Source of the DNA: an uncultured Pseudomonadota bacterium
GTDB lineage: Bacteria > Myxococcota_A > UBA796 > SXON01
Assembly: GCA_903921785.1 (NCBI GenBank)
Contig: CAIXRH010000008.1
Coordinates: 1-41,394, forward strand
Reading direction: 5' to 3'
Length of the DNA stretch: 41,394 nucleotides
The position numbers and the translations under genes are program-made. Positions within the stretch are counted from its first letter, which is position 1; each line of letters begins with the position of its first letter. Below are positions 21,630 through 41,165 of the stretch, piece after piece. The notes under the pieces are model-generated. The model was not told where the DNA came from. It did not search any database and saw only the letters and a program-made list of their open reading frames with translations.

Positions 21630-22360
21630 CAGAACTGCCCCTGGATCGCCACGTAGCCCGGGCCGAGCATGAGCGGTCCGCCTTCCCCCCACAGGCCGAG
21701 CGCGATCCCCCCGCCCAGCCCGAGCGCCCCGGTGATCATCAGGATGTCGGCGGCCAGCGCGTCGCCGCGCTCGGCGTCCAGGGCGGCGGCGGAGGAGGAG
21801 GAACAACGGAGGGCGCCGCCCGCGTCGGGCGCGCAGCCGTCGGCGGCCTCGGTGTGGGCGCCGACGGCGCCGCCGCCGAGCCCAGCGCCGATCCCCAGGG
21901 CGACCAGCCCCGCACCGGAGACGGCGAGCGGGAGCGGGCGGAAGAGGGTGGTCTTCGTGGGTTCGGGCGTCGGGGTGGCGACCACCACGGCCGCGGGCGC
22001 CGGCGGGGGGGGTGGAGGAGCGGCGGCGGCGGCGGCCTTCTGCTCGGTGGCGCGGCGTTCGAGCATGGTGATGCGCCGGTCGAGCGTCTCCCGCTCGTCG
22101 GCGGGAGCGTAGGCGCGGTAGCGGGAGAGCACGTCCAGCGCCTCATCGTACCGGGCGAGCCGCTCCAGCGCGTTGGCGATGTTGAACAAGAGCGCGGGGC
22201 GTTTGCTCAGCCGATACGCCTCCTCGAACGCGGCCACGGCGTCTTCATACCGGCCCTCGTCGTAGAGGGTGGCGCCGTTGTCGTACAGCTCTCGCGCCCG
22301 CGCGTCGTCGCCGTCCTGGGCGTGAGCGAGGTGCAGGGCGAAGAGCAGCGCGAGGGTCAT
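21629..22360 (-). CDS. Exported TPR protein with C-terminal membrane helices
   Basis: A 243-residue protein. A cleavable signal (ALLFALHLAHA) precedes at least two TPR units (residues about 22-90; ARELYDNGATLYDEGRYEDAVAAFEEAYRL and a second copy). A short coiled coil and Ala/Pro linker follow, then two glycine-rich hydrophobic stretches, LPLAVSGAGLVALGIGAG (about 160-178) and ILMITGALGLGGGIALGL near the end. This TPR plus paired helices layout is common in Myxococcota proteins next to Ser/Thr kinases and may link periplasmic lipoproteins to the membrane. The start overlaps the kinase stop (ATGA). Confidence 0.8.
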
Positions 22361-23922
22361 GGGCTCCAGGGGTCCTTGAGGTCTGAGCCGCTCGTCCGCT
22401 TCGTCGGGGCGGTCGGGGTTTCGGGCGAGGAGGTCGTCGGGGGGAGGGGCGCGCCCGTTTCGGGCGCCGCGGTTCCGGGACCGCGCTTCGCGGGTTCCTT
22501 CGGTACAGCGGCCGTGGGGTTGAGCACGACCTGTCGCCGCACCGAGTCCCACGGGATGCGGATGCGCACGGTGGTGTAGCCGGGCGCCGCCACCTCGACC
22601 TCCCAGACTTCGCCCGAGGGGATGGTGAGCGTGACGGATCCGGACCCCAGGACCGCCCCGTCTCGCCGAACGGTGGCGGCGGCGGGGATGGTGCTGAGCA
22701 CGACCGGGGGCGCGGGGCGGGCCGGGGCCGCGAGGACCGCCTCGGGCGCCGACGTGGGCGTGGAAGCGGCGGCGTCGCCGCGCTGCGAGCTCCACCACCA
22801 GGCGCCGAGCGCGAAGATCACGACGGCGGCCCCGAACATCATCAGCGCGGCCATCGCGCCGGTGGCGGCGAGCAACGGACCCTTTCGGCTTCGCACCGCG
22901 GAGACCATGGTGGACGCGCTCGGCTCCGGGGTTGGCGCGGGGGCCCGCGGCGGCGAGGGGGTGCGCGGGGAGCTGGGCTCCCGGACGAGTCGGCCCTGCC
23001 GAAGCTGGGGCGGCGCGACGGCCTCACCGCGGAGCTCGGCCTCGCAGAGCCGCAGCGCTCGAAGGAGCTCCTCCACGTCGGCGAACCGGCGCTCGGCCGT
23101 CTTCTCCAGGCAACGCTCGACCACCCAGCCGAGCGTGGGGCAGGCCACCAGGGCGGGGGCGTTGGCTTCGAGACGCGGCGGGGGCTGGTTGAGGTGCGCC
23201 AGCAGGACCCCGACGGAGTTGTCCGCGACGAAGGGGGGACGGCCGGCGATCGCGGTGTAGAGGATGACGCCGAGGGAGTAGATGTCGGAACGGCCGTCCA
23301 GCCGCTCGGCGCGAATCTGCTCGGGGGCCATGTAGGACGGAGAGCCGACGACCGCGTCGGTGCCGGTGAGCTCGTCGTCCGTCCGCATCTGCTTGACCAG
23401 CCCGAAGTCGAGCACCTTCACGAAGTCTTCGTCTTCGTCGTGGTTGAGCAGGACCACGTTCGCGGGCTTGAGGTCCCGATGGATGAGCCCGAGGCCGTGC
23501 GCCTCTCGCAGCGAGCCGCAGACCTGGCGGGCGATGTTGACGATTCGGGAGGCGGGGAGCGAGCCTTCGGCCTTGATCACCTGGTGGAGCGTGCGCCCGT
23601 CCAGGTACTCCATCACGATGTAGAGCAGCTCGTCGCCCACCTGGCCATGGTCGAACACGCGCACGGTGTTCGGATGGGTGAGCCGCGCGCAGACCGCCGC
23701 CTCCAGCAGGAAGCGTTGGCGGAACTCCTCCGCCTGCTCGGCGCCCCCGCTCAGCGCGAGCACCTTCACCGCCACCGTGCGCCCGAGCGGGTGTTGTTCC
23801 GCCCGGTACACGCGACTCATCCCTCCGCGGGCCAACGCAGAGGTGATCTCGTAGCGCCCGTCGATCTTCCGACCGATCAGCGGATCCCGGTCGCCGAGGG
23901 TCGGTGGGCGGGCCTCAGCCAC
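22357..23922 (-). CDS. Membrane Ser/Thr protein kinase with PEGA-like domain
   Basis: A Hanks-type kinase of about 521 residues. An N-terminal kinase domain has the glycine loop (LARGGMSRVYRA), catalytic HRDLKPANV, DFG in LDFGLVKQ and APEQ in YMAPEQI, so it looks active. A Pro-rich linker and a single TM (ALMMFGAAVVIFALGAWWW) follow. A periplasmic PEGA-type beta domain (STIPAAATVRRDGAVLGSG...GYTTVRI) and a Pro/Thr tail complete it. GTG at 23922 has AAGGGG six bases upstream; ATG at 23946 is possible but GGGGAG touches it. It leads the seven-gene unit and probably signals with those lipoproteins. Confidence 0.93.
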   Translation of the reverse strand: MAEARPPTLGDRDPLIGRKIDGRYEITSALARGGMSRVYRAEQHPLGRTVAVKVLALSGGAEQAEEFRQRFLLEAAVCARLTHPNTVRVFDHGQVGDELLYIVMEYLDGRTLHQVIKAEGSLPASRIVNIARQVCGSLREAHGLGLIHRDLKPANVVLLNHDEDEDFVKVLDFGLVKQMRTDDELTGTDAVVGSPSYMAPEQIRAERLDGRSDIYSLGVILYTAIAGRPPFVADNSVGVLLAHLNQPPPRLEANAPALVACPTLGWVVERCLEKTAERRFADVEELLRALRLCEAELRGEAVAPPQLRQGRLVREPSSPRTPSPPRAPAPTPEPSASTMVSAVRSRKGPLLAATGAMAALMMFGAAVVIFALGAWWWSSQRGDAAASTPTSAPEAVLAAPARPAPPVVLSTIPAAATVRRDGAVLGSGSVTLTIPSGEVWEVEVAAPGYTTVRIRIPWDSVRRQVVLNPTAAVPKEPAKRGPGTAAPETGAPLPPTTSSPETPTAPTKRTSGSDLKDPWSP

Positions 23923-24059
23923 GGAACGCCCCTTTGGGGAGACCATCTCCCCATTCTGCGGGCCGGGTGTCGCGTTTGGCAGGCATCCTGGACCCCCCGA
24001 TCGTAGCACGCCCGGCCCATGGATCGGCGCCGACCTTCATGAACGGGATGCAATACCGC

Positions 24060-24104: not shown

Positions 24105-26246
24105 ATGGACACCACCCCATCCGAAGTCGTCGATATTCGTCGTGAGCGATTCCTTGATCGGCTCGCGCGTGAAGTGGTGGCTTCGCCGTGGCTGATGGCC
24201 ACGGCGATCGTGCTGTCGCTGCTCCCTGCATGCGTATTTGCCTTTGCGGACCTTCCCCTACGGTCGCACGCGATCATCTCCGCCATCGTCATGGCGCTGT
24301 CCCTTTTGCTGCTTCGGCGGTTTCCGCGGTGGCGCCTCACGGTGGCGATGCTCTCGGTGTGCATGTCCGTCCGGTATGTGGTGTGGCGCGGCCTCACGAC
24401 CCTGGCGCTCGATCGCCCGGAGGACGCGGTGCTCAGCCTCCTGCTGTACGGGGCGGAGCTCTACGGCGTGGGCGTGCTCATCCTCGGCTACTTCCAGACC
24501 TCGGTCATGCACCCCCGGGTTCCCCTGGCGCTCCCGGTGGACGAGGAGCTGCCGACGGTGGACGTATACGTGCCCACGTACAACGAGGGGGTGGAGATCC
24601 TCCGCCGTACGCTCATCGGCGCCCGCGCGCTGGACTGGCCTCGTAAGAAGGTCTACCTGCTCGACGACGGGCGGCGTCCCGAGATGAAGGCGCTCGCCGC
24701 CGAGCTCGGCGTCGAGTACCTCGTCCGCGCGGACAACAAGCACGCGAAGGCGGGCAACATCAACGCGGCGCTCAAGCTCACCCAGGGCGAGTACATCGCG
24801 ATCTTCGACTGCGATCACGTGCCGGTCCGCAGCTTCCTCCGCCTCACCATGGGGTTCTTCCTCAAGGACCCGCGGATGGGCTTCGTGCAGACGCCCCATC
24901 ACTTCTACAACCCCGATCCGTTCGAGCGGAACCTGTGGTTGGAGGAGATGGTGCCGCCGGAGCAGGAGATGTTCTACCACGCGGTCCAGATCGGGAACGA
25001 CTTCTGGAATTCCTCGTTCTTCTGCGGGAGCTGCGCGGTTCTCCGTCGCTCGGCGATCGAGAGCGTAGGCGGAATCGCGGTGGAGACCGTGACGGAAGAC
25101 GCCCACACCGCCCTGCGGATGCACTCCGAAGGGTGGCGCTCCGCCTACCTGGACATTCCTCAGGCCGCCGGCCTTGCCACCGAGCGCTACGCCTACCACG
25201 TCGCCCAGCGGATGCGCTGGGCCCGGGGGATGACCCAGATCCTCCGCCTCGACAACCCGCTGTTCAAGAAGGGCCTCACCTTCGCCCAGCGGCTGAACTA
25301 CCTCAACGCGATCCAGCACTTCCAGTTCGGGATCCCCCGGCTGGTGTACCTCACCGCGCCAGCCATCTTCCTGATCTTTGGAATCCACCCGCTGCGCGCC
25401 AACCCGTGGGAGGTCATCGCCTACGCGATGCCCCATGTGTTCTTGAGCCTCATCGGCGGCCTCGCCGTGTCCCGCTCCGTGCGCCACGCCTTCTGGGCCG
25501 AGGTGTACGAGACGAGCCTTGCCCCGTTCACCGCCATCGTCACCACCCTCGCGCTGCTGGCACCGCGGAAGGGCAAGTTCAACGTGACCGTGAAGGGCAC
25601 CCAGCTCGACCGCGCCGCGTACGACCTCAAGCACGCGTTCCCCAACCTCCTGGTGCTGGCCCTCTGCGGTGTGGCCCTGTTCATGACGCCCTCTCGTTGG
25701 GAACAGTTCCCGCTCGAACGTGGCACCCTGATGGTCACGGCGATGTGGAACCTCTACAACGTCGGCATCATCGGGGCGGCCGTCATGGTGGCGCTTGAGC
25801 GTCCCCAGCGCCGGAAGACCTGGCGCGTGCGGCGGGAGCACCTCGTCCGGGTGATTCCGCAAGACCACCCCGAGCTGGGGGTGCTGATCGGCGAGTCCGT
25901 CGATCTGAGCGAGGGCGGGGTCCGCATCCGCCTGCCCAAGCTCCCCAAGGAGGTCAAGTCCGTCCTGGTGGAGATCGAGAGCAGCTTCCACACGTCGGCG
26001 CGGCTCCCGGGCCATGTGGTGAACCGGTTCGAGGTCAAGGGTGAGGTCGACCTCCGCGTGGAGTTCGACGCTCTCTCCGCGCCGGAAGAGGAAGAGTTGG
26101 TCGAACTGATGTTCACCGATCCCGACGCCTGGACCCACCGACCGATCAGCCAGCATCCGCTCCAGTCGCTGCTCACGGTGCTCTACGCCCCCTGGCGCGC
26201 GCTCGTCCTGAGTCTTCGGGACGATGAGCAGGAGGCCGACGCATGA
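24105..26246 (+). CDS. bcsA: Cellulose synthase catalytic subunit
   Basis: A 713-residue inner-membrane glycosyltransferase (family GT2) that polymerises UDP-glucose into beta-1,4-glucan. About eight TM helices flank the GT domain. Catalytic motifs are all present: DDG (187-189), DCD (235-237), TED (330-332) and QRMRW (368-372), plus FFCGS (305-309) and KFNVTVKG (491-498). The C-terminal PilZ domain (about 575-660) normally binds cyclic di-GMP; here DLSEGG is intact, but the RxxxR segment reads RREHLVR, so binding may be altered. The ATG overlap with the next gene (ATGA) and a bcsB/Z/C run confirm identity. Regulation by c-di-GMP is inferred. Confidence 0.97.
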   Translation: MDTTPSEVVDIRRERFLDRLAREVVASPWLMATAIVLSLLPACVFAFADLPLRSHAIISAIVMALSLLLLRRFPRWRLTVAMLSVCMSVRYVVWRGLTTLALDRPEDAVLSLLLYGAELYGVGVLILGYFQTSVMHPRVPLALPVDEELPTVDVYVPTYNEGVEILRRTLIGARALDWPRKKVYLLDDGRRPEMKALAAELGVEYLVRADNKHAKAGNINAALKLTQGEYIAIFDCDHVPVRSFLRLTMGFFLKDPRMGFVQTPHHFYNPDPFERNLWLEEMVPPEQEMFYHAVQIGNDFWNSSFFCGSCAVLRRSAIESVGGIAVETVTEDAHTALRMHSEGWRSAYLDIPQAAGLATERYAYHVAQRMRWARGMTQILRLDNPLFKKGLTFAQRLNYLNAIQHFQFGIPRLVYLTAPAIFLIFGIHPLRANPWEVIAYAMPHVFLSLIGGLAVSRSVRHAFWAEVYETSLAPFTAIVTTLALLAPRKGKFNVTVKGTQLDRAAYDLKHAFPNLLVLALCGVALFMTPSRWEQFPLERGTLMVTAMWNLYNVGIIGAAVMVALERPQRRKTWRVRREHLVRVIPQDHPELGVLIGESVDLSEGGVRIRLPKLPKEVKSVLVEIESSFHTSARLPGHVVNRFEVKGEVDLRVEFDALSAPEEEELVELMFTDPDAWTHRPISQHPLQSLLTVLYAPWRALVLSLRDDEQEADA

Positions 26247-26842
26247 ATACGGAGTGGGAATGCCCGCTCTGCCGGTCGACGAACCTCGTCCCGGCGCCGA
26301 TCTGCCGCGTCTGCAGGACCCCCTGGCCGGGGATCCGCGCGATGGGGGAGGGCACGCTCGACGAGGACGAAGACCTCCCGTCGCTCTTGGCTTCCCTCCC
26401 TGCGCCGTTGGTGCTGTCGTTCCTGGCGGCGGTGCTCTTCTTCTGGTGGGAGCCGGTCACGCGCCCGCTCTCCGTGCCCTCGGAGCACAGCGGTTGGACC
26501 GCCGCGGTCGGCACCGAGCGCCGGGAGGAGCTCCGCGTGGCCCGTCGGCAACTCCAGGCCCTCGCCGAAGAGATGCGCACCACGCTCGCCGAGGACAAAC
26601 CACTGGCGCCCGACTGGAACGAGCGCCTCAGCGCCTGTCGGCAGCGCTGGCAGATCTACGGGGAGCACGACCGCGCCCCCGCCCTCGGCGCCGCCGAGGT
26701 GAAGCTCCACAGCGCCGTGCTGGAGCTCGCGTCGATCCGTTTCCAGCTCTCGGCGGGCACCACCCCGTCGGAGCTCATCCAACGTCTGGACACCGTGAAC
26801 GCCGTCCTTGAAGAGGTCGGCGAGGAGCTCAACAATGCGTAG
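26243..26842 (+). CDS. Zinc-ribbon membrane protein in the bcs operon
   Basis: A 199-residue protein not found in canonical bcs operons. Cys7, Cys10, Cys21 and Cys24 form CxxC-x10-CxxC, a cytoplasmic zinc-ribbon. A single TM segment lies at about 52-69 (LVLSFLAAVLFFWW). The rest (about 86-199) is a helical coiled coil, probably in the periplasm. It overlaps bcsA by ATGA and its stop lies inside the start of bcsB (8-nt overlap), so it is translated with both. It may be an assembly or regulatory subunit of the synthase (inference). I do not recognise a named family. Confidence 0.82.
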   Translation: MNTEWECPLCRSTNLVPAPICRVCRTPWPGIRAMGEGTLDEDEDLPSLLASLPAPLVLSFLAAVLFFWWEPVTRPLSVPSEHSGWTAAVGTERREELRVARRQLQALAEEMRTTLAEDKPLAPDWNERLSACRQRWQIYGEHDRAPALGAAEVKLHSAVLELASIRFQLSAGTTPSELIQRLDTVNAVLEEVGEELNNA

Positions 26843-28970
26843 CCTCTCCCCCACCTCCATGCTGCTGTTGCTCGCCGCGTTGCCGGGGGCGGCCCACGCG
26901 CAGGACGCCGCTCCGGAAGGAAAGACCGGCGTGTACCACGCGGGGCTGGCGGACGAATTCTACCTCGCGGAAGACGTGATGCTCTCTGGCGTTCACGCCA
27001 CGCAGGACATCACCTTCACCCGCCCCCAGGCCTGGCGGCTCACGGGCGACCCGATCGTCCACGTCGTCTTCGAACACTCCGCGGCGCTCATCCCCGCGCG
27101 CTCGCACCTCACGGTCAGCGTGAACGACCAGCCGCTCGGCTCGGTCACGCTGGGAACGGACAACACCGGCACCACCACCTACGACGTGACGGTGCCTCGC
27201 TCCGCGCTTCAGGACTACAACCACCTGAAGTTCGATGTCGACCAGCACTACACGGACGACTGCGAAGATCCGTTCGATCCTGCGCTCTGGACGCGGGTGC
27301 GCACCTCGACCAGCATCGACCTGCCCTTCGAGCGTCGTCGGGTTGAGGGTGAGCTTCTCAAGTGGCCCTACCCACTGGTCGACAAGCTCGGCTACGGCCC
27401 GACCGAGGTGACCCTCGTCACTCCGGGTGGCCCGTCCAAGGACACGGTCGACGCGCTCGGCGTGCTCGGCTTCTCCCTCGGCCGCATCGCGGACTACCGG
27501 GAGATCGACCTGGTCGACCCCGTCGTGAGCGCGTCCGAGGCGCGCACTGCCGCGTTGATCATCGGCACCGCCGCGGAGGTCCCCGAGGCGCTCACGCTGG
27601 CGGGCGTGACGGAGCTCGGTCCGGAGGAAGGGCTCGTGGCCCTCGTGCCCAACCCGTCGGACGAGACGCTCCCGGTGCTCATCGTCACGGGCGGCGGCCC
27701 GGTCGGGCTCGCGAAGGCGACCGCCGCGCTGTCCGGCCAGGACCGCTACCAGGTGCTCTCGGGCAGCGTGTCGCGGATCACGGCGGTCTCTCCGTCCAAC
27801 CCGCCGCCCACCCGGCAGAAGCCGCTCGCCGCACCGCCGGCCTCGTCGTTCTCGCTCAAGGACCTCGGGATGGAGGGCCGCACGGTGCGCGGCTACTACC
27901 CGGCCCCGATCCGCATCCCGCTCAAGCTTGAGGGCGACGCCCTCGCCCAGCCCAGCGGCGGGAGCATCCGCGTCGACTACGCCTACTCCGCGCAGCTCGA
28001 CAGCAAGCTCTCCACCATGGAAATCCGCCTCGGCGGCCTCACCCTGCGGAGCGTCCCGCTGGAGAAGGTCACCGGAGAGTCGCAGGCCTCCGTCACCGTC
28101 CCGCTGCCCCAGGACCTCCTGGACCCCGCGGCCAACGTCGATGTGGTCTTCCACCTCTTCCCTCGCGACTTCGATGAGTGCGATCGGGTCTCCGACAAGC
28201 AGATCTGGGGCACCGTCTTCGCATCCTCCACGATCGACCTCGCTCGGGATCACGTGGCCGACATGCCGGACCTGAGCCGGCTCCGCTACGGAAACTGGCC
28301 GTTCAATGCCCTCGCGCCCAACGGCGGCACCGTCATCGTCCTCCCGGACGCGCCGGACGGTCGGGCGGAGTCCGCCGGCTTCATGCTGGCCACCCGGCTC
28401 GGCAAGCTCACCCAGAGCGCGCAGCCGGACTTCGCGATGCTCCGCGCGGTGGACGCCACGTTCACCGACAAGGCCGACAAGAACTTCATCCTGCTCGTCG
28501 ATGGTACGCCGAGCTCGGCCTACGACGCGCTCGCCAGCGCCGGAGCCCTCACCCTGACCGGAGGGCCGGAGCGGCTCCTCGCCAACGGCAAGGAAGTGCT
28601 CCTCGACGCCACGGTCGGCACCCCCTACGGCACGATCGAGGAGGCGTTCTCCCCGGCCAACGCCAAGCGGGCCGCGCTGGTGATCCGCGCGCTCCGTGAG
28701 GACGGCCTCACCCCGCTCGTCGAGTCGGCCACCGACCTTGGCAAGGTGAAGAAGCTCTCTGGCAACCTGGCGATCATCGGCGCCGACCTTGACGTGCGCA
28801 CGATGGACGTCGCCACCCACCAGGCCTGGGGCCGCGTGGCGGTGTCCACGGCGGCGACCCGCGAGATCCAGCACAACTACCCCGTGCTGCTCGCCGCGGT
28901 CATCGGCGGGCTCCTCCTCTTGACCGCGATCTTCCGTCGGTTCGTCGCGGCCCGCACCGACCGCGAGTAG
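26835..28970 (+). CDS. bcsB: Cellulose synthase regulatory/periplasmic subunit
   Basis: A 711-residue periplasmic protein anchored by a C-terminal TM helix (LLAAVIGGLLLLTAIF). The signal peptide ends in AHA. The body has the alternating carbohydrate-binding beta-sandwich and flavodoxin-like domains of BcsB, with DDCEDPFDPALWTRV and DFDECDRVSDKQIWG as characteristic segments. BcsB guides the growing glucan across the periplasm and is needed for BcsA activity. The Met at 26835 is preferred over an in-frame TTG 27 nt upstream, since it gives a clean signal peptide. The stop is 9 nt before bcsZ. Confidence 0.95.
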   Translation: MRSLSPTSMLLLLAALPGAAHAQDAAPEGKTGVYHAGLADEFYLAEDVMLSGVHATQDITFTRPQAWRLTGDPIVHVVFEHSAALIPARSHLTVSVNDQPLGSVTLGTDNTGTTTYDVTVPRSALQDYNHLKFDVDQHYTDDCEDPFDPALWTRVRTSTSIDLPFERRRVEGELLKWPYPLVDKLGYGPTEVTLVTPGGPSKDTVDALGVLGFSLGRIADYREIDLVDPVVSASEARTAALIIGTAAEVPEALTLAGVTELGPEEGLVALVPNPSDETLPVLIVTGGGPVGLAKATAALSGQDRYQVLSGSVSRITAVSPSNPPPTRQKPLAAPPASSFSLKDLGMEGRTVRGYYPAPIRIPLKLEGDALAQPSGGSIRVDYAYSAQLDSKLSTMEIRLGGLTLRSVPLEKVTGESQASVTVPLPQDLLDPAANVDVVFHLFPRDFDECDRVSDKQIWGTVFASSTIDLARDHVADMPDLSRLRYGNWPFNALAPNGGTVIVLPDAPDGRAESAGFMLATRLGKLTQSAQPDFAMLRAVDATFTDKADKNFILLVDGTPSSAYDALASAGALTLTGGPERLLANGKEVLLDATVGTPYGTIEEAFSPANAKRAALVIRALREDGLTPLVESATDLGKVKKLSGNLAIIGADLDVRTMDVATHQAWGRVAVSTAATREIQHNYPVLLAAVIGGLLLLTAIFRRFVAARTDRE

Positions 28971-28979
28971 GGAGCCGTC

Positions 28980-30068
28980 GTGGCCCTCGCCGCCGCGCTC
29001 GCCGCGCTCTCGTTCGTCGTCGCGCCTGCGGGCGCGACGGTGCGGGCGGAACTGCGCGAGACGTGGACGGCGTACAAGAAGGTGTACGTGAGCGAGGACG
29101 GTCGCGTCATCGACTATCGGGCGGCGTCGGCGACGACGTCCGAGGGGCAATCCTACGCGCTCGTGCGCGCCGTCTGGATGGATGACGCCGCCACCTTCGA
29201 ACGGGTGCGGCGATGGACTGTCGCCAACCTCCAAGGCGGCGACGCCGAGCAGCTCCCCGCCTGGAAGTGGGGCCAGGGCGAGGACGGCACGTGGGGGGTT
29301 CGGGACCCCCAGCCGGCGTCGGACGCCGACCAGCTCTACGCCTGGGCGTTGCTCAGCGCGGCGAAGCGTTGGAAGAAGCCGGAGTACACCACCCTGGCCT
29401 ACCACTTGCTGGTGCAGCTCTGGGCCCAGGAGGTCGACGAGGTCGCCGGCCGGATGGTCGTTCTCCCCGGGCCGTGGGCGCGTGGACAACAGCCGACGCG
29501 GCTGAACCCCTCCTACTTCCTTCCGTTCGCCTGGCGTGACTTCGCTCGCGCCGACCTGTCGCACCCTTGGGGGCGCCTCGTGGATGACGGCTACGCGCTG
29601 CTCACGGCCTGCCGTTCGCCGGGGGGGCTCGCCCGGGACTGGTGTTACCTCGACGCCTCTGGGGCGGTGGTCCCCGCCGCTGAACCGGCCCACGACGCGT
29701 TCGCGTTCGAGGCTCTCCGCGTCCCCTGGACGCTTGCGGCTGAGGTGCGGTGGCACCACGAGCGGCGCGCCCGGGTGCTCCTGCGCCCCTACGAAGCGCT
29801 GCTCTCCCGCACGAAGGCTCCGTCCTTGCTCCCCGGCATCATCCTCCCCGACGGCCGCGGAGCGGTAGACTGGGAGTATCAGGGCATGGTGGGCGCCCTG
29901 CTGCCGGTGTGGGCGCTGCACCACCCCTGCGTGACCCGCCGTCTCTACGCCGATCGTCTCGCGACCACGCGGGGCGACCATGGCTGGGGGGACCCCAACG
30001 ACTACTACGGGCAGAACTGGATCTGGTTCGGGCTCGCGCTCTGGAAACTTGAGGAGATGTCCGCATGA
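28980..30068 (+). CDS. bcsZ: Endo-1,4-beta-glucanase, GH8
   Basis: A 362-residue secreted glycoside hydrolase of family 8 that cuts beta-1,4-glucan in the periplasm during export. The signal peptide is at about 1-19. Catalytic-site motifs are present: E55 in SEGQSYAL (general acid) and SDADQLYAWAL (residues 114-124; D115 and D117). LNPSYFLPFAWR and WDYQG-like segments (here WEYQG) also match the family. The start is GTG at 28980. Its stop overlaps the ATG of bcsC (ATGA). The position between bcsB and bcsC is typical of Bcs operons. Confidence 0.94.
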   Translation: MALAAALAALSFVVAPAGATVRAELRETWTAYKKVYVSEDGRVIDYRAASATTSEGQSYALVRAVWMDDAATFERVRRWTVANLQGGDAEQLPAWKWGQGEDGTWGVRDPQPASDADQLYAWALLSAAKRWKKPEYTTLAYHLLVQLWAQEVDEVAGRMVVLPGPWARGQQPTRLNPSYFLPFAWRDFARADLSHPWGRLVDDGYALLTACRSPGGLARDWCYLDASGAVVPAAEPAHDAFAFEALRVPWTLAAEVRWHHERRARVLLRPYEALLSRTKAPSLLPGIILPDGRGAVDWEYQGMVGALLPVWALHHPCVTRRLYADRLATTRGDHGWGDPNDYYGQNWIWFGLALWKLEEMSA

Positions 30069-33000
30069 TCGCGCTCTTGGCCTGGACCCTCTGGGCCTCG
30101 CCCGCGGCGGCGGCGCCGTCCGCGGAGGTGCTCGCGCTGGCGGATGCCCCATTCTCTGGCGAACGGCGGCTCGCGCTCGCTCGCGCGCTGCTCGCGCGCG
30201 GAACACCGGGAGAGGAGGGAATCGCGGCGCTCGAACGGCTGCTGGACGACCCCACCGTAGGCGAGAAGGCCCGGGACACCCTGGTCGACGTGCTCGGAAA
30301 GCAAGACGCCGCGCCGCGATGGGGGGGCATCTACGCCCGACTCCTCAAGGCGCCGCAGTTCACGGGCCGGGACCGGATCGAGGTGCTCCGCGCCGAGCTC
30401 CGGCTCGCCGATCCCCGAACGCACGCGTCCGCCCTGGCCGATCTCGACCGGCTGACGACCTTCGCCACCGGCGACACCGCGCGCCTCGTCGGCCGCGCCC
30501 TCCTCCGCGGCGGCGAACCCGCTCGCGCGGCTACTGCCTTTTCTCTGGTGGGCGACGGTTCGGCCCGAGGGTTGGAGGCCCTCGCCGCGCTCGCAGCGGG
30601 GGATACTCACCGCGCCCAGACGCTCGTCGATCTTGGCGTCAAGCTGCCCGGGCTGAAGGAGGCGCTCGCCGACCCGACGCCCCTGGCGAAGGCCGATGCG
30701 CTCGCGCAGAACGGCTACACCCGGGCGGCGCGGATACTGCTCGAGGGGGAGCGCCCGGAGGCGGTGGGCTTGCAGCTCGCCGGCCTCGAACGTGGAGAAG
30801 CTCGCCTTCCTGAGGCCACCGCTGCCCTGATCGCGTGGCGGCGGGTGCACCCCGACGACGAGGCCGCTCGTCGCGCGCTGGTGGACGTGTACGAAGCGCG
30901 GTCGCGCTACTCCGACGCCCTGAAGCTCGTCCCCGCCGGGGATCCGGCCTACGGGTCCCTCGCGGCCCGGGCGGCTTTCCGCAAAGCCTGGGAGTCTCCG
31001 AAGAAGAAGGGCTTCGACGACGCCCTGGCCGCGGCCTGGGCCGTCGCACCGACCGATCCGTTCATCGCCCGGGAATGGGCCAAGTCGCGCATCGCCGCGC
31101 GCAAGCCGACGGAGGCGCTCGCCCCGCTCCAGGGGCTGTTCGCCGAGCACGTCTTCGACAAGGACGCCCTCGGCCTCTACAACATGGCCGCGGTCGATGC
31201 TGGCGTGCCCGAGAAGGCGGTGGTCTACCAACTGGAGGCGGCCTCGGTTGCGAGCACGCCCGAAGCCCGCCGCACCCGGCTCGCGGATGTCGCCGACCTG
31301 CTGGCGATCTGCGCCGAGGCTGCAAAGAAGAAGGGAGACGCGGAAGGCGCGCTCGAGCCCTACTTCACGTCGTTGTTGCTCGACACCCCCGACGGTGGGC
31401 AGCTGATGGGCGCGGGCGGGCTGCTCTGGCAGGCCAAGCACCCCGAGGGCGCCGAGGCGCTCTACGCCGCGGCCTACGCCGAGGACCCCAGGCTCGTCGA
31501 CGCCCTCGTGGCCACGACCCGATTGCTGCTGCAGATGGGTCGGGACAGCGAGGCGCTCGCCATGCTCGAAGCGTCCACCAGCCGGGACCCTAAGATCAAG
31601 CTCCTCCGTGCCACGGTGGTCAGCGCGTTGCGTGCTCGCGACGCCCGCGAGGCCCAGGCTTCGGGGGACCTTGAGGCGGCGCGAATCCTCTGGGAGCAGC
31701 TCGCCGCTCAATACCCCGAAGACGCCAGTTTCCGGCATGGTCTCGGCGACACCCTCGCCGGCCTCGGCGACCTCGAGCACGCCCTCGAGCAGTATCGGAA
31801 GACCATCGAGCTCGATCCCACGGACCCTTGGGCGGTGCTCGCCGCCGGCAACGTTCTGGTGGGCCTGCACCGGCCGGAGGAGGCACGGGAGCTGGTCTCC
31901 ACGAGCTACCCCGAGGGGGTCGACGCTTCGGCGGACGCCGAGAAGATCCACGTCGTCGCGCGTGCCTGGCGAGAGAGCGCGGCGCGGGAGCAGTCGGCTG
32001 GCAACATCCTGGAGGCCTTCGCCGACTGGCGCGAGGCCTACCTCGTGGAGCACGATCCCTGGTCGATGAACGGGCTGGCCGGTCTCTACCTCACCCGCGA
32101 ACAGCCCGAGGTGGCGCTGATCTTCTCGGAGGAAGTCCTGGCGGGAGATGCGGGAAATGAGGAGGCGCTGGTGGGTCGGGCGTTGGCGCTCGAAGCCCTC
32201 GGCAGGTGGGACGACGCGCGCGCTGCCGCCATCGCGATCCAGCGCCCCGAGGCCACGTCGGCGGCGCTCCAAACCCGGAAGACCCTGCTCCAGCGGCTCG
32301 CGGTCGCCCAGTCGGAGTACCAACGACGGATTGGCGAGGTTGACGCGGCGGTGGCGCGGCTGACGACCACCATCCACGATGAAGGCCCGACGGTGGAGCT
32401 GTGGACGGCGCTCGCGTCCGCCCAGCTCGACGGGCATGACTGCCCTGCGGCGATGGACAGCGTCCCGCGGGCGCTGGATCTGGCCCCGAAGAGCCGTTGG
32501 GCGCTCGGCATCGCGCTCCGCGCCGAGGCCGTCTGCAAGACGGCGGACGAAGTTTATCCCAAGTTGCAGGAGGCCGATCGCCGCGCTGGAGTGGGCTACG
32601 CGGCCGCGGAGCTCCGGGCGTCCCGCTTCGAGCTCGACCTGCAGCGCGCCGAGCGGCTCGCGGCGGCCGGGCGCGGGGGCGAGGCGCTCACCCCAATCGC
32701 GGAGGCGCAGTCCCTCGGCGACCTCTCGGCTGACGAGTGGGCGCGACTAGGTGGGGTCTGGCTCGCCTTGAACCGGCCGAAGGACGCGGTGGCCGCGTAC
32801 GAACACACGCTGGCGATCGACCCTACGCACGTGCCCGCGATCATCGGCGAGGCCGGAGCGTGGCGCGCGGCGGGGCGGCTCCAGGCGGCGGAAGCGCACC
32901 TGGAGGAGGGCTGGGGGCGGGTTCGCGATCCGCGCGTCGGCCTTCAGTTGGTGCAGACGCTCATCCAGCAGGGGCGCTACGACAAGGCCGCGACCGTGCT

Positions 33001-34237
33001 GGCCGACGTGAAGACGGCGACGCTGCCGCCGGAGCCGGCCGCGCCGCGCGATCCGTCGCCGAGCCCGCTCCCGGTCCTGGAGCTCCCTTCGGGGCGTGTT
33101 CCCGGTCCTCGCACGTACGCGCCGGTTCCGCCGCGCGACCTCCAGCCCCGATGGCTCGTCGATGCGGTGAGCTCGGTGGACATCGACCTCGCCCGCGAGC
33201 GCGGCGTCGAGGTCGTCGTGGGCGCCGGCGCCTTCGCGAAGCCCGGCACCGACGGGGAGCAGCGCCTTGACGGCTGGTATGTGCCGGTTCAGGCGGTCTT
33301 CCCGCCGATCGGTCTCTTCCGTCCCAACGCGGACGTGGTGCTCGTGCACCTCGACGACGGCGTCGACCAGGCCATCGGCGTGGCCCCAGCAGTGGGCATC
33401 GCCACCCCGCCCTACCGCAGCTTCTTCGCCACGGCGCGGATCGGTACGTCCCCGATCGGCTTCGACCAGGTGAACGTGCTCTGGCACGGTCATGCGCGTC
33501 TCGGTGTCGCACCGCACCTCGCGGTCGGCCTGCTCACGGCGCGCACCCCCAAGTCCGACTCGCTGCTCTCCTGGGCCGGCAAGACCGACCCGACCACGGG
33601 GCAATTCTACGGCTTCGTCAGCGAGCTCTGGCTCGCCGGATACGCGAGCTGGTCGCCGGCGCCGTACGACCTCGGTGCTCAGCTCAAAGGGGGCTACACC
33701 GAGGGCTACGGAGTGGACCCGAACCCCTTCGCGGAGCTGGTGATCTGGGGCGGCGGACGCCTCGGCAATGACCGCGCGAACGTACGCATCGGCGGACAGG
33801 CGGTTGGCATCACCAACGAGCGGCAGGAAGACAGCTTCCTGCTGCCTCACGGGGGGTACTTCAGCCCGCCCTTCTTCGTCATGGCGGTCGCCGAGGCCAA
33901 GGGCACCTTGGCGTTCTCGGGGAACCGGGGGCGGCTCTGCGCGGCGCTCAGCGGCGGTCCGCAGTACGTCGACGGCAACGACTCGCTTTGGTTCGGCTCC
34001 GGCCTCAGCGCTACGGCGCGCGCCGGGCTCGGTGCGAGCTGGCGGGTCTCCCCGTGGGTGGCGCTCGGCGCGGATGGCCGGATGCAGCAGTCCACCTCCG
34101 GCTGGCACCAGGAGGCCGCGATGGCCCATGTCACGTTCGGGTTGCCGCCTCAGGGGCCCTCCGCCCCGACCATGGCGACGACCGCCTCGGCCGGCTCGAT
34201 CGTGCTCGCCACTGACGACCTCTGCAGCGTGGATTGA
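30065..34237 (+). CDS. bcsC: Cellulose export TPR/outer-membrane barrel protein
   Basis: A 1390-residue exporter. The signal peptide is at about 1-18. Residues about 20-985 are TPR-like helical repeats (for example YPEDASFRHGLGDTLAGLGDLEHALEQYRK) forming a periplasmic scaffold. A Pro-rich hinge (about 985-1020) precedes the C-terminal barrel (about 1030-1370), whose GGYFSPPFFV motif is characteristic of BcsC barrels. It is longer than E. coli BcsC by over 200 residues, mostly in repeats. The barrel is followed by about 20 residues ending in DLCSVD rather than an aromatic. The ATG overlaps bcsZ and the end overlaps the CotH gene. Confidence 0.92.
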   Translation: MIALLAWTLWASPAAAAPSAEVLALADAPFSGERRLALARALLARGTPGEEGIAALERLLDDPTVGEKARDTLVDVLGKQDAAPRWGGIYARLLKAPQFTGRDRIEVLRAELRLADPRTHASALADLDRLTTFATGDTARLVGRALLRGGEPARAATAFSLVGDGSARGLEALAALAAGDTHRAQTLVDLGVKLPGLKEALADPTPLAKADALAQNGYTRAARILLEGERPEAVGLQLAGLERGEARLPEATAALIAWRRVHPDDEAARRALVDVYEARSRYSDALKLVPAGDPAYGSLAARAAFRKAWESPKKKGFDDALAAAWAVAPTDPFIAREWAKSRIAARKPTEALAPLQGLFAEHVFDKDALGLYNMAAVDAGVPEKAVVYQLEAASVASTPEARRTRLADVADLLAICAEAAKKKGDAEGALEPYFTSLLLDTPDGGQLMGAGGLLWQAKHPEGAEALYAAAYAEDPRLVDALVATTRLLLQMGRDSEALAMLEASTSRDPKIKLLRATVVSALRARDAREAQASGDLEAARILWEQLAAQYPEDASFRHGLGDTLAGLGDLEHALEQYRKTIELDPTDPWAVLAAGNVLVGLHRPEEARELVSTSYPEGVDASADAEKIHVVARAWRESAAREQSAGNILEAFADWREAYLVEHDPWSMNGLAGLYLTREQPEVALIFSEEVLAGDAGNEEALVGRALALEALGRWDDARAAAIAIQRPEATSAALQTRKTLLQRLAVAQSEYQRRIGEVDAAVARLTTTIHDEGPTVELWTALASAQLDGHDCPAAMDSVPRALDLAPKSRWALGIALRAEAVCKTADEVYPKLQEADRRAGVGYAAAELRASRFELDLQRAERLAAAGRGGEALTPIAEAQSLGDLSADEWARLGGVWLALNRPKDAVAAYEHTLAIDPTHVPAIIGEAGAWRAAGRLQAAEAHLEEGWGRVRDPRVGLQLVQTLIQQGRYDKAATVLADVKTATLPPEPAAPRDPSPSPLPVLELPSGRVPGPRTYAPVPPRDLQPRWLVDAVSSVDIDLARERGVEVVVGAGAFAKPGTDGEQRLDGWYVPVQAVFPPIGLFRPNADVVLVHLDDGVDQAIGVAPAVGIATPPYRSFFATARIGTSPIGFDQVNVLWHGHARLGVAPHLAVGLLTARTPKSDSLLSWAGKTDPTTGQFYGFVSELWLAGYASWSPAPYDLGAQLKGGYTEGYGVDPNPFAELVIWGGGRLGNDRANVRIGGQAVGITNERQEDSFLLPHGGYFSPPFFVMAVAEAKGTLAFSGNRGRLCAALSGGPQYVDGNDSLWFGSGLSATARAGLGASWRVSPWVALGADGRMQQSTSGWHQEAAMAHVTFGLPPQGPSAPTMATTASAGSIVLATDDLCSVD

Positions 34238-35415
34238 TGATGTTGCTCTCCCTGCTTCTGGCCTGTGGCCACCCCCTCGACTCCGGCGACTCGGACAGCG
34301 GCGCCACCGCCGGCTGGGACTTCGACGACGAAGCGTGGCTCTACGGCGATCGCACGCTCGACTTCGACATCGAGCTGGACCAGGCCGCGCTCGACGCGCT
34401 CGCCGCCGCCCCCAAGGACAACGTCCACGCTACGTTTTCCTGGGAGGGAGAGAGCTACGATGTCGGCCTGCACCTCAAGGGCAGCGAAGCGGGCTCTTTC
34501 CGCGACCTCAGCAAGAAGGCTTCGTTCAAGATCGACTTCCACGAGTGGAATCCGGATCAGCGGTTCCACGACGTGAAGCGGTTGACGCTCAACAACATGA
34601 TCCAGGATGGGACGATGTCCCATGAGCACACGGTGTACTGGCTCATGCGTGATCTTGGCGTCCCCGCGCCACGCCATGGCTACGCCCGGGTCACGGTCAA
34701 CGGGGAGCTCTTCGGGCTCTACAGCCTGCCCGAGTCGATGGACGAGCAGTTCATCAACCAGGGCTTTCCGGAGGACGACGCTGGGAACCTGTACGAGGGG
34801 GGCTACGGCGGCGATCTGAAGTCCGGGCGCGAAGCGAACTTCACGCTCCAAGAGGGCGACGAGACCACCACGGCCGATCTCACCGAGCTGATCGCGGCCG
34901 TTCAAGCCGCCCCGGCGAACGGCGCGCTCCCGATGATCCAGGCCAACTTCGAGGCCGATGACCTCTTCCACCAGTGGGCGGTGGAGTTGGTCGCCGCGGA
35001 CATCGACGGGTACTCGACCGCGGCGAACAACTTCCTGATCTACCACGCGCCGATCGCGGGCCGGTGGTCGATGATCCCGTGGGGGCCCGACCAGGCGTTG
35101 GAGACCGACCAGGGGCTCTACATCGAGGAGAGCTCTTTTGGGGGCTCCATCGGTGAGCTCACCCGGCGCTGCCACGCCGATGCGGCCTGCATGGACGCGC
35201 TCGACGCCGCGATCACCGACGTGCTCACCTCGTGGGAGGGCGGCGCATTCTACGACTTCGTCGACACGGAGACCGCGCGGATCGAGGCGGATTGCCGTGC
35301 GGATCCTCGCAGCGAGTGGGGCGACTACGGTTGCCGGGATGCGCAGGCGGCGCTCCGCGACTGGGTGCGGGCCCGGCCCGCGAAGGTGCGGGCGGAGCTC
35401 GGCCAGCACGACTGA
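34237..35415 (+). CDS. CotH-family kinase-like lipoprotein coupled to bcsC
   Basis: A 392-residue surface lipoprotein with lipobox LLAC (Cys10). A short Asp/Ser/Gly linker leads into a CotH-type domain: LHLKGSEAGSF...KKASFKIDF, NGELFGLYSLPESMDEQF, and WSMIPWGPDQAL, where the conserved WxPWDxD-type metal segment is modified to WGPDQ. CotH proteins are atypical kinases that phosphorylate coat proteins in Bacillus; other members occur on Myxococcota surfaces. The gene starts on TGATG, overlapping bcsC, so it belongs to the cellulose operon. A role on the exported polymer or on surface proteins is only inference. Confidence 0.88.
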   Translation: MMLLSLLLACGHPLDSGDSDSGATAGWDFDDEAWLYGDRTLDFDIELDQAALDALAAAPKDNVHATFSWEGESYDVGLHLKGSEAGSFRDLSKKASFKIDFHEWNPDQRFHDVKRLTLNNMIQDGTMSHEHTVYWLMRDLGVPAPRHGYARVTVNGELFGLYSLPESMDEQFINQGFPEDDAGNLYEGGYGGDLKSGREANFTLQEGDETTTADLTELIAAVQAAPANGALPMIQANFEADDLFHQWAVELVAADIDGYSTAANNFLIYHAPIAGRWSMIPWGPDQALETDQGLYIEESSFGGSIGELTRRCHADAACMDALDAAITDVLTSWEGGAFYDFVDTETARIEADCRADPRSEWGDYGCRDAQAALRDWVRARPAKVRAELGQHD

Positions 35416-35485: not shown

Positions 35486-36211
35486 GTGAACGAACCTGGC
35501 TGCATCCTGGTGGTCGACGACGAGGAGGACCTTCGGAACCTCCTCCAACATGCGCTCGGAAAGGAGGGCTTCCGCGTCCACGCGGTGGGCTCTGGCCCTG
35601 AAGCGCTCGCCCTGGCGCCGACGCTGCGCCCGTCCCTCGTGCTGCTCGACCTCATGCTTCCTGGCATGCAGGGGACCGAGGTCTGCCGTCGTCTTCGGGC
35701 GGATGCGAGCCTTGCGGGCATGCCGATCATCATGCTCACTGCCCGCGGCGAAGAGCTCGATCGGGTGGTCGGGCTGGAGCTCGGCGCGGATGACTACGTC
35801 ACCAAGCCTTTCTCCACGCGCGAGCTGATCCTCCGCATCCGCGCGGTGCTGCGTCGTTCGGCGGGTCCGCCGCCCAACGAGCCGGAGTCGAGCCTCCGCC
35901 TTGGTGCGCTGCGGATCGACGCCGCCGCCCACCGCGTGTGGGTCGACGAGGAGGAGGTTCAGCTCACGGCAACCGAGTTCCGCCTGCTGACGTGCCTGGC
36001 CCGGCGCAGCGGTCGGGTGCAGACGCGTGGACAGCTCCTCCAGGAAGTCTGGGACATGCCGCCCGACCTCAGCACCCGCACGGTCGACACCCACATGAAG
36101 CGGCTCCGCGAGAAGCTCGGGGCGGCCGGGGATCGGATCGAGACCGTGCGCGGGGTCGGCTATCGCCTGGTGTCATTCTCACCGCCCGCGAGCGCTGCGC
36201 CAAGGGCTTGA
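35486..36211 (+). CDS. Orphan OmpR/PhoB-type response regulator
   Basis: A 241-residue response regulator with no kinase next to it. The receiver has DDE at 11-13, phospho-acceptor D55 (LLDLMLPGMQG) and K107 (VTKPFS). The winged-helix domain (about 140-230) ends in RGVGYRLV. The last ten residues are Pro/Ala-rich and probably disordered. The start is GTG at 35486, with no clear ribosome site. It follows the bcs/CotH operon by 70 nt and could regulate it, but nothing in the sequence shows this. Confidence 0.93.
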   Translation: MNEPGCILVVDDEEDLRNLLQHALGKEGFRVHAVGSGPEALALAPTLRPSLVLLDLMLPGMQGTEVCRRLRADASLAGMPIIMLTARGEELDRVVGLELGADDYVTKPFSTRELILRIRAVLRRSAGPPPNEPESSLRLGALRIDAAAHRVWVDEEEVQLTATEFRLLTCLARRSGRVQTRGQLLQEVWDMPPDLSTRTVDTHMKRLREKLGAAGDRIETVRGVGYRLVSFSPPASAAPRA

Positions 36212-39617: not shown

Positions 39618-41165
39618 ATGTTTCTCCTCCTCCTCGCCTGCGCCACCGAAGCCGTCGACACCGGGGCTTCGGCCACCGTCGAGGCCTGCTCCGTCGTGGG
39701 TGACCGTCCCGCGGGGTGGGGCGAGGCGACGCACGACAATTCTGCCGAGCCTGACTACGACCACGTCTTCGATCGATCCTCGGTCATGCGGATCGACCTC
39801 GCGGTGTCGTCGGACGACTACACCGCCGCCTACGCGGAGCTGACCGAGCTCCTCGGCACGGAGTTCGGCGCCGGCGGCGGCGGTCCGGGCGGCGGAGGGC
39901 CGCCCGACAACGGCGTGGACCCTCGGGAGGCCATGGACGCGTGCCTCGGGCTCGCGGAGGGGGACGCCTGCTCCGTCGCGGTGGACAGCGTGGACACCGA
40001 GGGCACCTGCGCCGTGGCGGGGCCTCAGGGGGAGCTGATGTGCACGCCCGACGGCGGGGGCGGTGGCGGTGGGGCCAACCTGGACTTCACGGGCTCAGAC
40101 CCGAGCTACTTCCCGGCGACGGTCACGGTGGAGGACGAGACGTGGTGCTCCGTGGGCATGCGCTTCAAGGGGAACTCCACGCTCTCTTCGGCGTGGTCCG
40201 AGGGGGTGGAGAAGCTCCCATTCCGGCTCGACTTCGACCGGTTCGAGGATGAGCACCCCGAGGTCGACGACCAGCGATTCTATGGGTTCTCCGATCTGAG
40301 CTTCGGCAACAACTACAGCGACGCCACCTACATCCGCGACGTGATGTCGTCGGTGATCCTGGAGGACCGCGGCGTCCCCGCCGCCCGCAACCGCTTCGCG
40401 GCCGTGTACCTCGACACGGGCGATGGTCCCGTCTACCTCGGGCTCTACACCCTCAACGAAGACCCCTCCGATGCGCTCCCCGATCGCCTCTGGGGCACCG
40501 ACGATGGGGAGCTCTACGAGGCCGATGGCACCTGCGCGAACCTCGCCTGCTACGACGCGGACAGCTTCACCGCGAAGCTCCACGACGGGGATGGCGCCGA
40601 GGTACAGGCGCTCGTCGCCGCCCTGGCGGCGGACCGAAGCGACGCGGCGGCGTGGCGTGCGGGCCTGGAGGCCACGGTGGACGTGGACGGCTTCCTGAAG
40701 TGGTTGGCGGTGAATTCGGCGATCGAGAATTGGGACGCCTACGGGGTGATGGCGCACAACTACTACCTCTACGCCCTCCCCGAGGCGGGCGGCCAGCTTC
40801 AGTGGGTCCCCTGGGATCACAACATGGCGCTCGCCGATGGGATGATGGGCTCCGACGACCCCTTGCTCGCCGATGTGACCGACGACTGGCCGCTGATCCG
40901 CCTCACGTTGGACGACGAGGAGTACGCCTCGATCTATCGAGAGGATCTCGCGGACGCGCTCACCGGGGCCTACGCCACCGAGACCTTCGAGGCCACCGCG
41001 GAGCAGTACCGCACGCTCCTGGAGCCCTATGTCGTCGGAGCGGACGGCGAGCGAGCGGAGAGCACCTTCGTGGGCAGCGAGGCCACTTGGACCAGCGCGT
41101 ACGAAACGTTCTATTCCCACGCGCAGAGCCGCCGGGAGACGGTGGAGGAAGCGCTCGGTCGGTAG
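39618..41165 (+). CDS. CotH-family kinase-like lipoprotein with Cys-rich insert
   Basis: A 515-residue surface lipoprotein with lipobox LLAC (Cys8). The CotH fold is evident: MRFKGNSTLSSAW, KLPFRLDFDRFED, LGLYTLNEDPSD, AIENWDAYGVMAHNYYLY and QWVPWDHNMAL, with the PWDxx metal/ATP segment conserved. Two glycine-rich strings near residues 93-101 and 147-154 flank a four-Cys module (DACLGLAEGDACS...GTCAV...LMC) that looks inserted in the domain. It is a second CotH protein, about 4 kb from the bcs-linked copy, and differs in length and sequence. The kinase activity and target are inferred. Confidence 0.9.
   Translation: MFLLLLACATEAVDTGASATVEACSVVGDRPAGWGEATHDNSAEPDYDHVFDRSSVMRIDLAVSSDDYTAAYAELTELLGTEFGAGGGGPGGGGPPDNGVDPREAMDACLGLAEGDACSVAVDSVDTEGTCAVAGPQGELMCTPDGGGGGGGANLDFTGSDPSYFPATVTVEDETWCSVGMRFKGNSTLSSAWSEGVEKLPFRLDFDRFEDEHPEVDDQRFYGFSDLSFGNNYSDATYIRDVMSSVILEDRGVPAARNRFAAVYLDTGDGPVYLGLYTLNEDPSDALPDRLWGTDDGELYEADGTCANLACYDADSFTAKLHDGDGAEVQALVAALAADRSDAAAWRAGLEATVDVDGFLKWLAVNSAIENWDAYGVMAHNYYLYALPEAGGQLQWVPWDHNMALADGMMGSDDPLLADVTDDWPLIRLTLDDEEYASIYREDLADALTGAYATETFEATAEQYRTLLEPYVVGADGERAESTFVGSEATWTSAYETFYSHAQSRRETVEEALGR

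Follow-up and report, generated by a model that had tools for sequence, protein, structure and literature searches.

CotH proteins are widespread, and to our knowledge a substrate is known for few of them outside the spore coat. According to the available text of one report, the Pel operons of streptococci, clostridia and bifidobacteria adjoin CotH genes, and its authors propose regulation through the phosphorylation of proteins (PMC7112168). In Streptococcus intermedius, a strain deleted for SIR_1594, a CotH gene, made less Pel and in one medium aggregated less than half as much (PMC12345266). In the stalk-forming system of the Zetaproteobacteria, the CotH-SH3 protein Sfz6 accompanies BcsA-like and BcsB-like genes, again in the portion of the article that was available (PMC8250860). 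CotH is absent from the main text of a systematic classification of cellulose operons (PMC7112194), and among the papers listed by a literature search, in which few subscription journals were covered, none dealt with a CotH gene in a bcs operon.

Here we describe such a gene, cotH type a, in the window (the whole stretch of 41,394 nucleotides that was analysed). Its start/stop overlap with bcsC and a gene order conserved in relatives identify it as a member of the window's cellulose operon, to which the earlier note had assigned it, and as the final bcs-linked gene there (Table 1). The locus resembles the Gram-positive Pel accessories, of which SIR_1594 is an example, in that a CotH, secreted there and putatively secreted here, is encoded beside a synthase-dependent exopolysaccharide operon (PMC7112168, PMC12345266), but in the available descriptions those accessories serve Pel and not cellulose, belong to Gram-positive bacteria and are accompanied by a polyphosphate polymerase and a DUF4956 protein. 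No such Pel-type set was found among the genes profile-scanned beside the window cotH; a polyphosphate link was also discarded at the level of the genome, where the sole VTC match lies on contig C285, which has no CotH match. With Sfz6 the locus shares the association of a CotH domain with a cluster that encodes BcsA-like and BcsB-like proteins, but Sfz6 is an SH3-CotH fusion of 1,415-2,270 aa, sometimes lies far from the cluster and belongs to a stalk polysaccharide, and the accessible part of the report mentions no coupling to BcsC (PMC8250860). More remote is the Fam20 family (the xylose kinase Fam20B, and Fam20A/Fam20C), whose members are secretory kinase-fold proteins and include a glycan kinase as well as a pair made up of an active kinase and a pseudokinase; these are animal proteins, however, and their fold likeness to the window protein, CotH-a, is distant (Z of about 10). 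A CotH beside a polysaccharide synthase was already known; what appears to be new is a BcsC-coupled CotH, with two clades occupying one slot.

The genes 5′ of cotH are, in order, bcsA, orf199, bcsB, bcsZ and bcsC. The coordinates, reading frame and TGATG junction claimed for cotH in the earlier note proved correct: the bcsC stop codon (TGA, 34235-34237) and the cotH start codon (ATG, 34237-34239) have one base in common, an overlap from which we infer probable translational coupling of cotH to bcsC. The start of bcsB was set with a codon-usage script, its PF03170 match having been obtained with a longer reading from 26808. A profile search of the window genome gave a single BCSC_C match, the bcsC of this operon. 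orf199 had no match in Pfam or NCBIfam and, by eye, has Cys motifs in pairs and a single hydrophobic stretch. On the 3′ side, the response regulator starts 70 bases after cotH; a sensor-kinase-like gene, recognized by eye, follows the regulator in three relatives (G008, G010 and G012; e.g. L102: 13142-14371) and is not present in the window. Upstream, a gene divergent from bcsA (22357-23946, minus strand) resembles by eye a Ser/Thr kinase (HRDLKPANV, DFG), and G004, G007 and G009 have similar genes in this position.

Table 1. Features of the bcs operon and of cotH type a in the window.
Feature	Position	Strand	Basis
bcsA, cellulose synthase with PilZ domain	24105..26246	+	Pfam GT2, Cellulose_synt, PilZ
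orf199, protein of unknown function in the bcsA-bcsB interval	26243..26842	+	homologues in the same interval in family relatives
bcsB	26835..28970	+	PF03170, 306 bits
bcsZ, GH8 endoglucanase	28980..30068	+	PF01270, 164 bits
bcsC, TPR and outer-membrane barrel	30065..34237	+	PF05420, 66 bits
bcsC stop / cotH start overlap, TGATG	34235..34239	+	read from sequence
cotH type a, 392 aa, putative lipoprotein with kinase fold	34237..35415	+	PF08757 and structural alignment to 5jd9
Asp257 codon, corresponding to catalytic D228 of B. subtilis	35005..35007	+	alignment to 5jd9
Asn265 codon, equivalent of PKA N171	35029..35031	+	alignment to 5jd9
Trp282-Gly283-Pro284-Asp285 codons; Gly283 in the position of the metal-binding Asp	35080..35091	+	alignment to 5jd9
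OmpR-type response regulator after the bcs operon; near bcs in relatives too	35486..36211	+	PF00072, PF00486

Membership of CotH-a in the CotH family is firmly established by sequence and fold, which bears out the description of a CotH kinase-like protein in the earlier note. The PF08757 profile matched residues 87-382 with an E-value of 2.9e-33 and 116.2 bits against a cut-off of 23.8, and an NCBIfam search gave no family for either CotH type a or the type b described below. A first structure model, built from 10 rows, reached a pLDDT of 64.6, with the active-site loop below 50, and was too poor for geometry; its top Foldseek ranks were the Bacillus CotH structures 5jd9 and 5jda (E 2.9e-12 and 4.6e-12), with a Z of 19.9. 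A second model, from 15 rows, reached 80.8, residues 281-290 averaging 58, and aligned to 5jd9 (VIA-align) with a Z of 33.4 and an rmsd of 2.5 Å over 334 residues; the next family after CotH was PI4K II, at a Z of 11.5. CotH-a shares with the Bacillus spore-coat kinase its fold, its Pfam family and the positions of the catalytic Asp, the Asn and the adenine-stacking Trp, but differs from it in having 17% identity, in being a putative lipoprotein of a bcs operon and not a spore coat protein, and in carrying Gly for the metal-binding Asp. The N-terminus, MMLLSLLLAC, ends in an LLAC lipobox read by eye (Cys10 codon at 34264..34266, plus strand) and has no basic residue before the hydrophobic run; the C10 column is at least 90% conserved among 10 homologues, and the N-terminal shape recurs in homologues. 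In CotH-a N-termini such as that of L109: 6034-7248, the linkers after the lipobox are Asp-Thr/Ser runs such as DTSDTSDTSDT, which are also present in other lipoproteins of these genomes and may be acidic Ser/Thr kinase targets.

Adjacency of cotH and bcsC in one genome is weak evidence because the window genome is rich in CotH, with 29 matches in 7.48 Mb, or about one per 258 kb. The bcsC-cotH order, whose absence from related genomes together with loss of the key kinase residues the earlier note had named as counting against its reading, was kept when adjacency was surveyed in the taxonomic family. This sample comprised 22 genomes, 18 of them with bcs genes (17 by BcsB and G017 by BcsC), and 19 bcsC loci with a PF05420 match; G013, whose diverged bcsC lacks that match and is followed by a gene other than CotH, falls outside the 19. 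In 13 of the 19 loci cotH lies directly 3′ of bcsC: type a alone in the window, G005, G011, G017, G018 and one of the three G019 loci, type b alone in G002, G004, G006 and G009, and type a followed by type b in G007, G008 and G010, where the tandem genes overlap by 4 nt. The bcsC-cotH junction is an overlap or a gap of 4-8 nt, except in G004, where the start is uncertain. In G007 and G010, cotH-b is followed by another protein of secreted appearance, 185-189 residues long (L105: 15699-16256; L136: 3952-4521); the window operon does not have it. The remaining six loci (G001, G012, G015, G016 and two of G019) have no cotH adjacent to bcsC; in G001, of the same genus as the window, a response regulator comes next with no cotH between, and in G012 the next gene encodes, by eye, a GGEEF-motif protein. 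Outside the taxonomic family, 16 genomes of a 377-genome phylum sample carry the bcsC domain, and CotH follows bcsC in none of the 15 loci in which the contig continues (in G148 it ends after bcsC); in several of them the slot is occupied by an OmpA-type repeat protein, recognized by eye, and in G046 a type-b-like CotH lies about 1.9 kb before bcsA, with an opposed reading frame between. On this gene-order evidence, conservation of the slot goes well beyond chance adjacency.

The bcs-linked genes of type a (WGPDQ in the window gene) and type b (WDKDQ) formed separate, well-supported groups both in a careful tree of 65 rows, from which two short rows had been dropped beforehand, and in a quick tree of 77 rows, which included more paralogues, most own-genome paralogues being dropped and some rows failing the length filter. 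Because the types are separate clades, the slot either was filled more than once or has kept two ancient paralogues: types a and b were recruited to it separately, or a tandem pair was there and was lost piecemeal, with moves to other parts of the genome. Type a copies away from bcsC, found in G002, G004, G016, G038 and G049, lie inside or beside the type a group. The type b CotH of the window genome (WDKDQ) likewise lies inside or beside the type b group; it stands alone on contig C251 (L150: 2478-3773, plus strand), away from bcs. Both types are present in G000 (the window genome), G002, G004, G005, G007, G008, G010, G017 and G019, and type a occurs without type b in G011, G016 and G018. As judged by dN/dS, which ranged from 0.24 to 0.43 for type a (5 pairs) and from 0.08 to 0.43 for type b (10 pairs), both types evolve under constraint.

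The two types also co-occur with bcs genes. Type a proper, a 14-row group of the 77-row tree, comes from 14 genomes, all 14 with bcs genes, and type b at E 1e-40 or better was present in 17 of 186 genomes, 16 of the 17 with bcs (the one without is G039). Within the taxonomic family, type a or b was found in 17 of the 18 bcs-positive genomes (the exception being G013) vs none of the four bcs-negative ones (G003, G014, G020, G021), for which the Fisher value of 6.8e-4 is only a guide, as the genomes are related, the groups were defined after the tree and incomplete assemblies can hide genes. Relatives in genus g6 have 6-13 type-a-like matches per genome at E 1e-60, the bcs-linked copy included. 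A contig titled as a Bifidobacterium breve MAG (CALQBK020000293.1, L098) carries a type-a CotH with 50% identity; its genome groups with the taxonomic family of the window, and the title looks wrong. No viral relatives were confirmed among nine candidate stretches. A second CotH lies in the window itself (39618-41165, plus strand; 515 aa; PF08757, 161 bits) and has the canonical first Asp (WDHN); it was rejected as a part of the system, since the slot genes were the only CotH genes found at the bcs loci retrieved from members of its genus (L102-L105, L108, L111, L113).

The alignment to a CotH structure proposed in the earlier note gave a divided answer: CotH-a retains Asp257, Asn265 and the adenine-stacking Trp282, and Gly283 of the WGPDQ segment (residues 282-286) stands where B. 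cereus CotH (5jd9) has the Asp of WDYD. PKA-like residues of CotH and a Tyr142/Trp245 sandwich are described in the available text of one study (PMC12189002), and in B. subtilis CotH the D228Q and D251A substitutions are inactive, according to the accessible part of another (PMC7821199). Because the two Asp of 5jd9 are 23 residues apart, like 228 and 251, D251 would correspond to Gly283 of CotH-a. We class CotH-a as a member of the CotH family, rather than as an established kinase, in which Gly283 replaces the metal-binding Asp of the Bacillus-type active kinase. Type a proteins linked to bcs keep Asp257 and Asn265 in 9 of 9 cases, and type b keeps WDKD in 7 of 7. The Asp257 column is conserved in 92 of 94 complete rows, while the residue at 283 is Gly in 53 of the 94 and Asp in 36, these rows being related and drawn by likeness to P0001 (CotH-a) and P0002, so that the shares are not those of the whole CotH family. 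Asp285 is present in all 53 rows with Gly283 vs 35 of the 41 others (Fisher 0.0055). The WGPDQ segment pointed out in the earlier note does replace an Asp, with one correction: because Gly283 is common and Asp285 is then always present, WGxD is a conserved subfamily motif and not a lesion confined to the window gene. Decay of the CotH-a active site was ruled out by a dN/dS below 0.45 in all 15 pairs and by the constant Asp285. Either Asp285 would take over the metal in CotH-a, or the protein would be a pseudokinase.

Our preferred reading, which we hold tentatively and with a probability of roughly 0.45, is that CotH-a assists cellulose secretion as a kinase of the outer membrane, with a protein target at the BcsC exit. 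CotH would be made together with BcsC and tethered through its lipid to the outer membrane, where Asp257, Asn265 and Asp285 would hold ATP and metal, Asp285 standing in for the missing Asp at position 283. It would then phosphorylate a partner at the surface or in the matrix, near the BcsC exit. The most probable target is a protein, either BcsC or one secreted into the matrix, and this phosphorylation may tune the assembly or the retention of cellulose at the cell surface. Several points count against this reading: the equivalent by spacing of the essential D251 is Gly in CotH-a, no substrate candidate stands out in the bcs operon, the source of ATP in the periplasm or at the surface is unexplained, and six of the 19 family bcsC loci have no cotH, with type a copies lying away from bcsC in five genomes.

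The same Gly283, at a place mapped to a residue whose Ala mutant is inactive in B. subtilis according to the available text (PMC7821199), also fits a pseudokinase accessory that has lost phosphotransfer and would either provide a scaffold or allosterically activate an active type b, in the way of Fam20A for Fam20C, the precedent given in the accessible part of PMC5865150. This possibility, which we rate as rather doubtful, agrees with the intact WDKD of all seven type b proteins, with the a-b tandem in three genomes and with the presence of both types, in tandem or at separate loci, in most members of the genus, but it sits uneasily with the retention of Asp257 and Asn265 in every bcs-linked type a protein and of Asp285 in every Gly283 protein, and with the three genomes (G011, G016, G018) that have type a and no type b.

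By analogy with Fam20B and POMK, CotH-a might instead be a glycan kinase that phosphorylates the cellulose chain at the BcsC exit and so gives an anionic matrix. The position of cotH near bcsZ and bcsC, with no evident protein substrate in the operon, would suit such an activity, as would the recurrence of CotH beside three polysaccharide systems (Pel, stalk Sfz and Bcs) and the fold match to 5xoo, a hydra Fam20 structure with bound sugar (Z 10.0, 4.4 Å, 236 residues). A Z of 10 fits lipid kinases and HipA as well, however, and CotB, the known substrate of CotH, receives its phosphate in Ser-rich protein repeats as far as the available text tells (PMC7821199), and we regard this reading as quite unlikely. 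Comparably improbable is the bolder proposal that CotH-a and CotH-b are dedicated cellulose-exporter kinases, whose target at the outer membrane would be the glucan as it emerges or a partner bound to BcsC; if it were true, bacterial cellulose could be modified with phosphate by an enzymatic route other than the phosphoethanolamine one, and the type a metal site would read WGxD in place of WDxD.

That one copy of a CotH-rich genome simply came to lie behind bcsC, where it is expressed but has no role in cellulose production, is disfavoured given the conservation survey, and seems very improbable: the 29 CotH matches, the second window CotH, which lies 3.4 kb from the response regulator and was not found at the bcs loci of relatives, and the confinement of the bcsC-cotH linkage to one taxonomic family would agree with it, but the 13 of 19 loci, the two clades in one slot, the tight overlaps and the co-occurrence with bcs argue against it.

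Together with the Pel and stalk cases, the occurrence of two CotH clades in one bcs slot suggests that CotH generally takes part in building polysaccharide matrices, in Gram-positive and Gram-negative bacteria alike. The bcs-linked CotH genes offer a small, testable system, and WGxD as a conserved alternative to WDxD lets one ask whether a large part of the CotH family consists of kinases or of pseudokinases.
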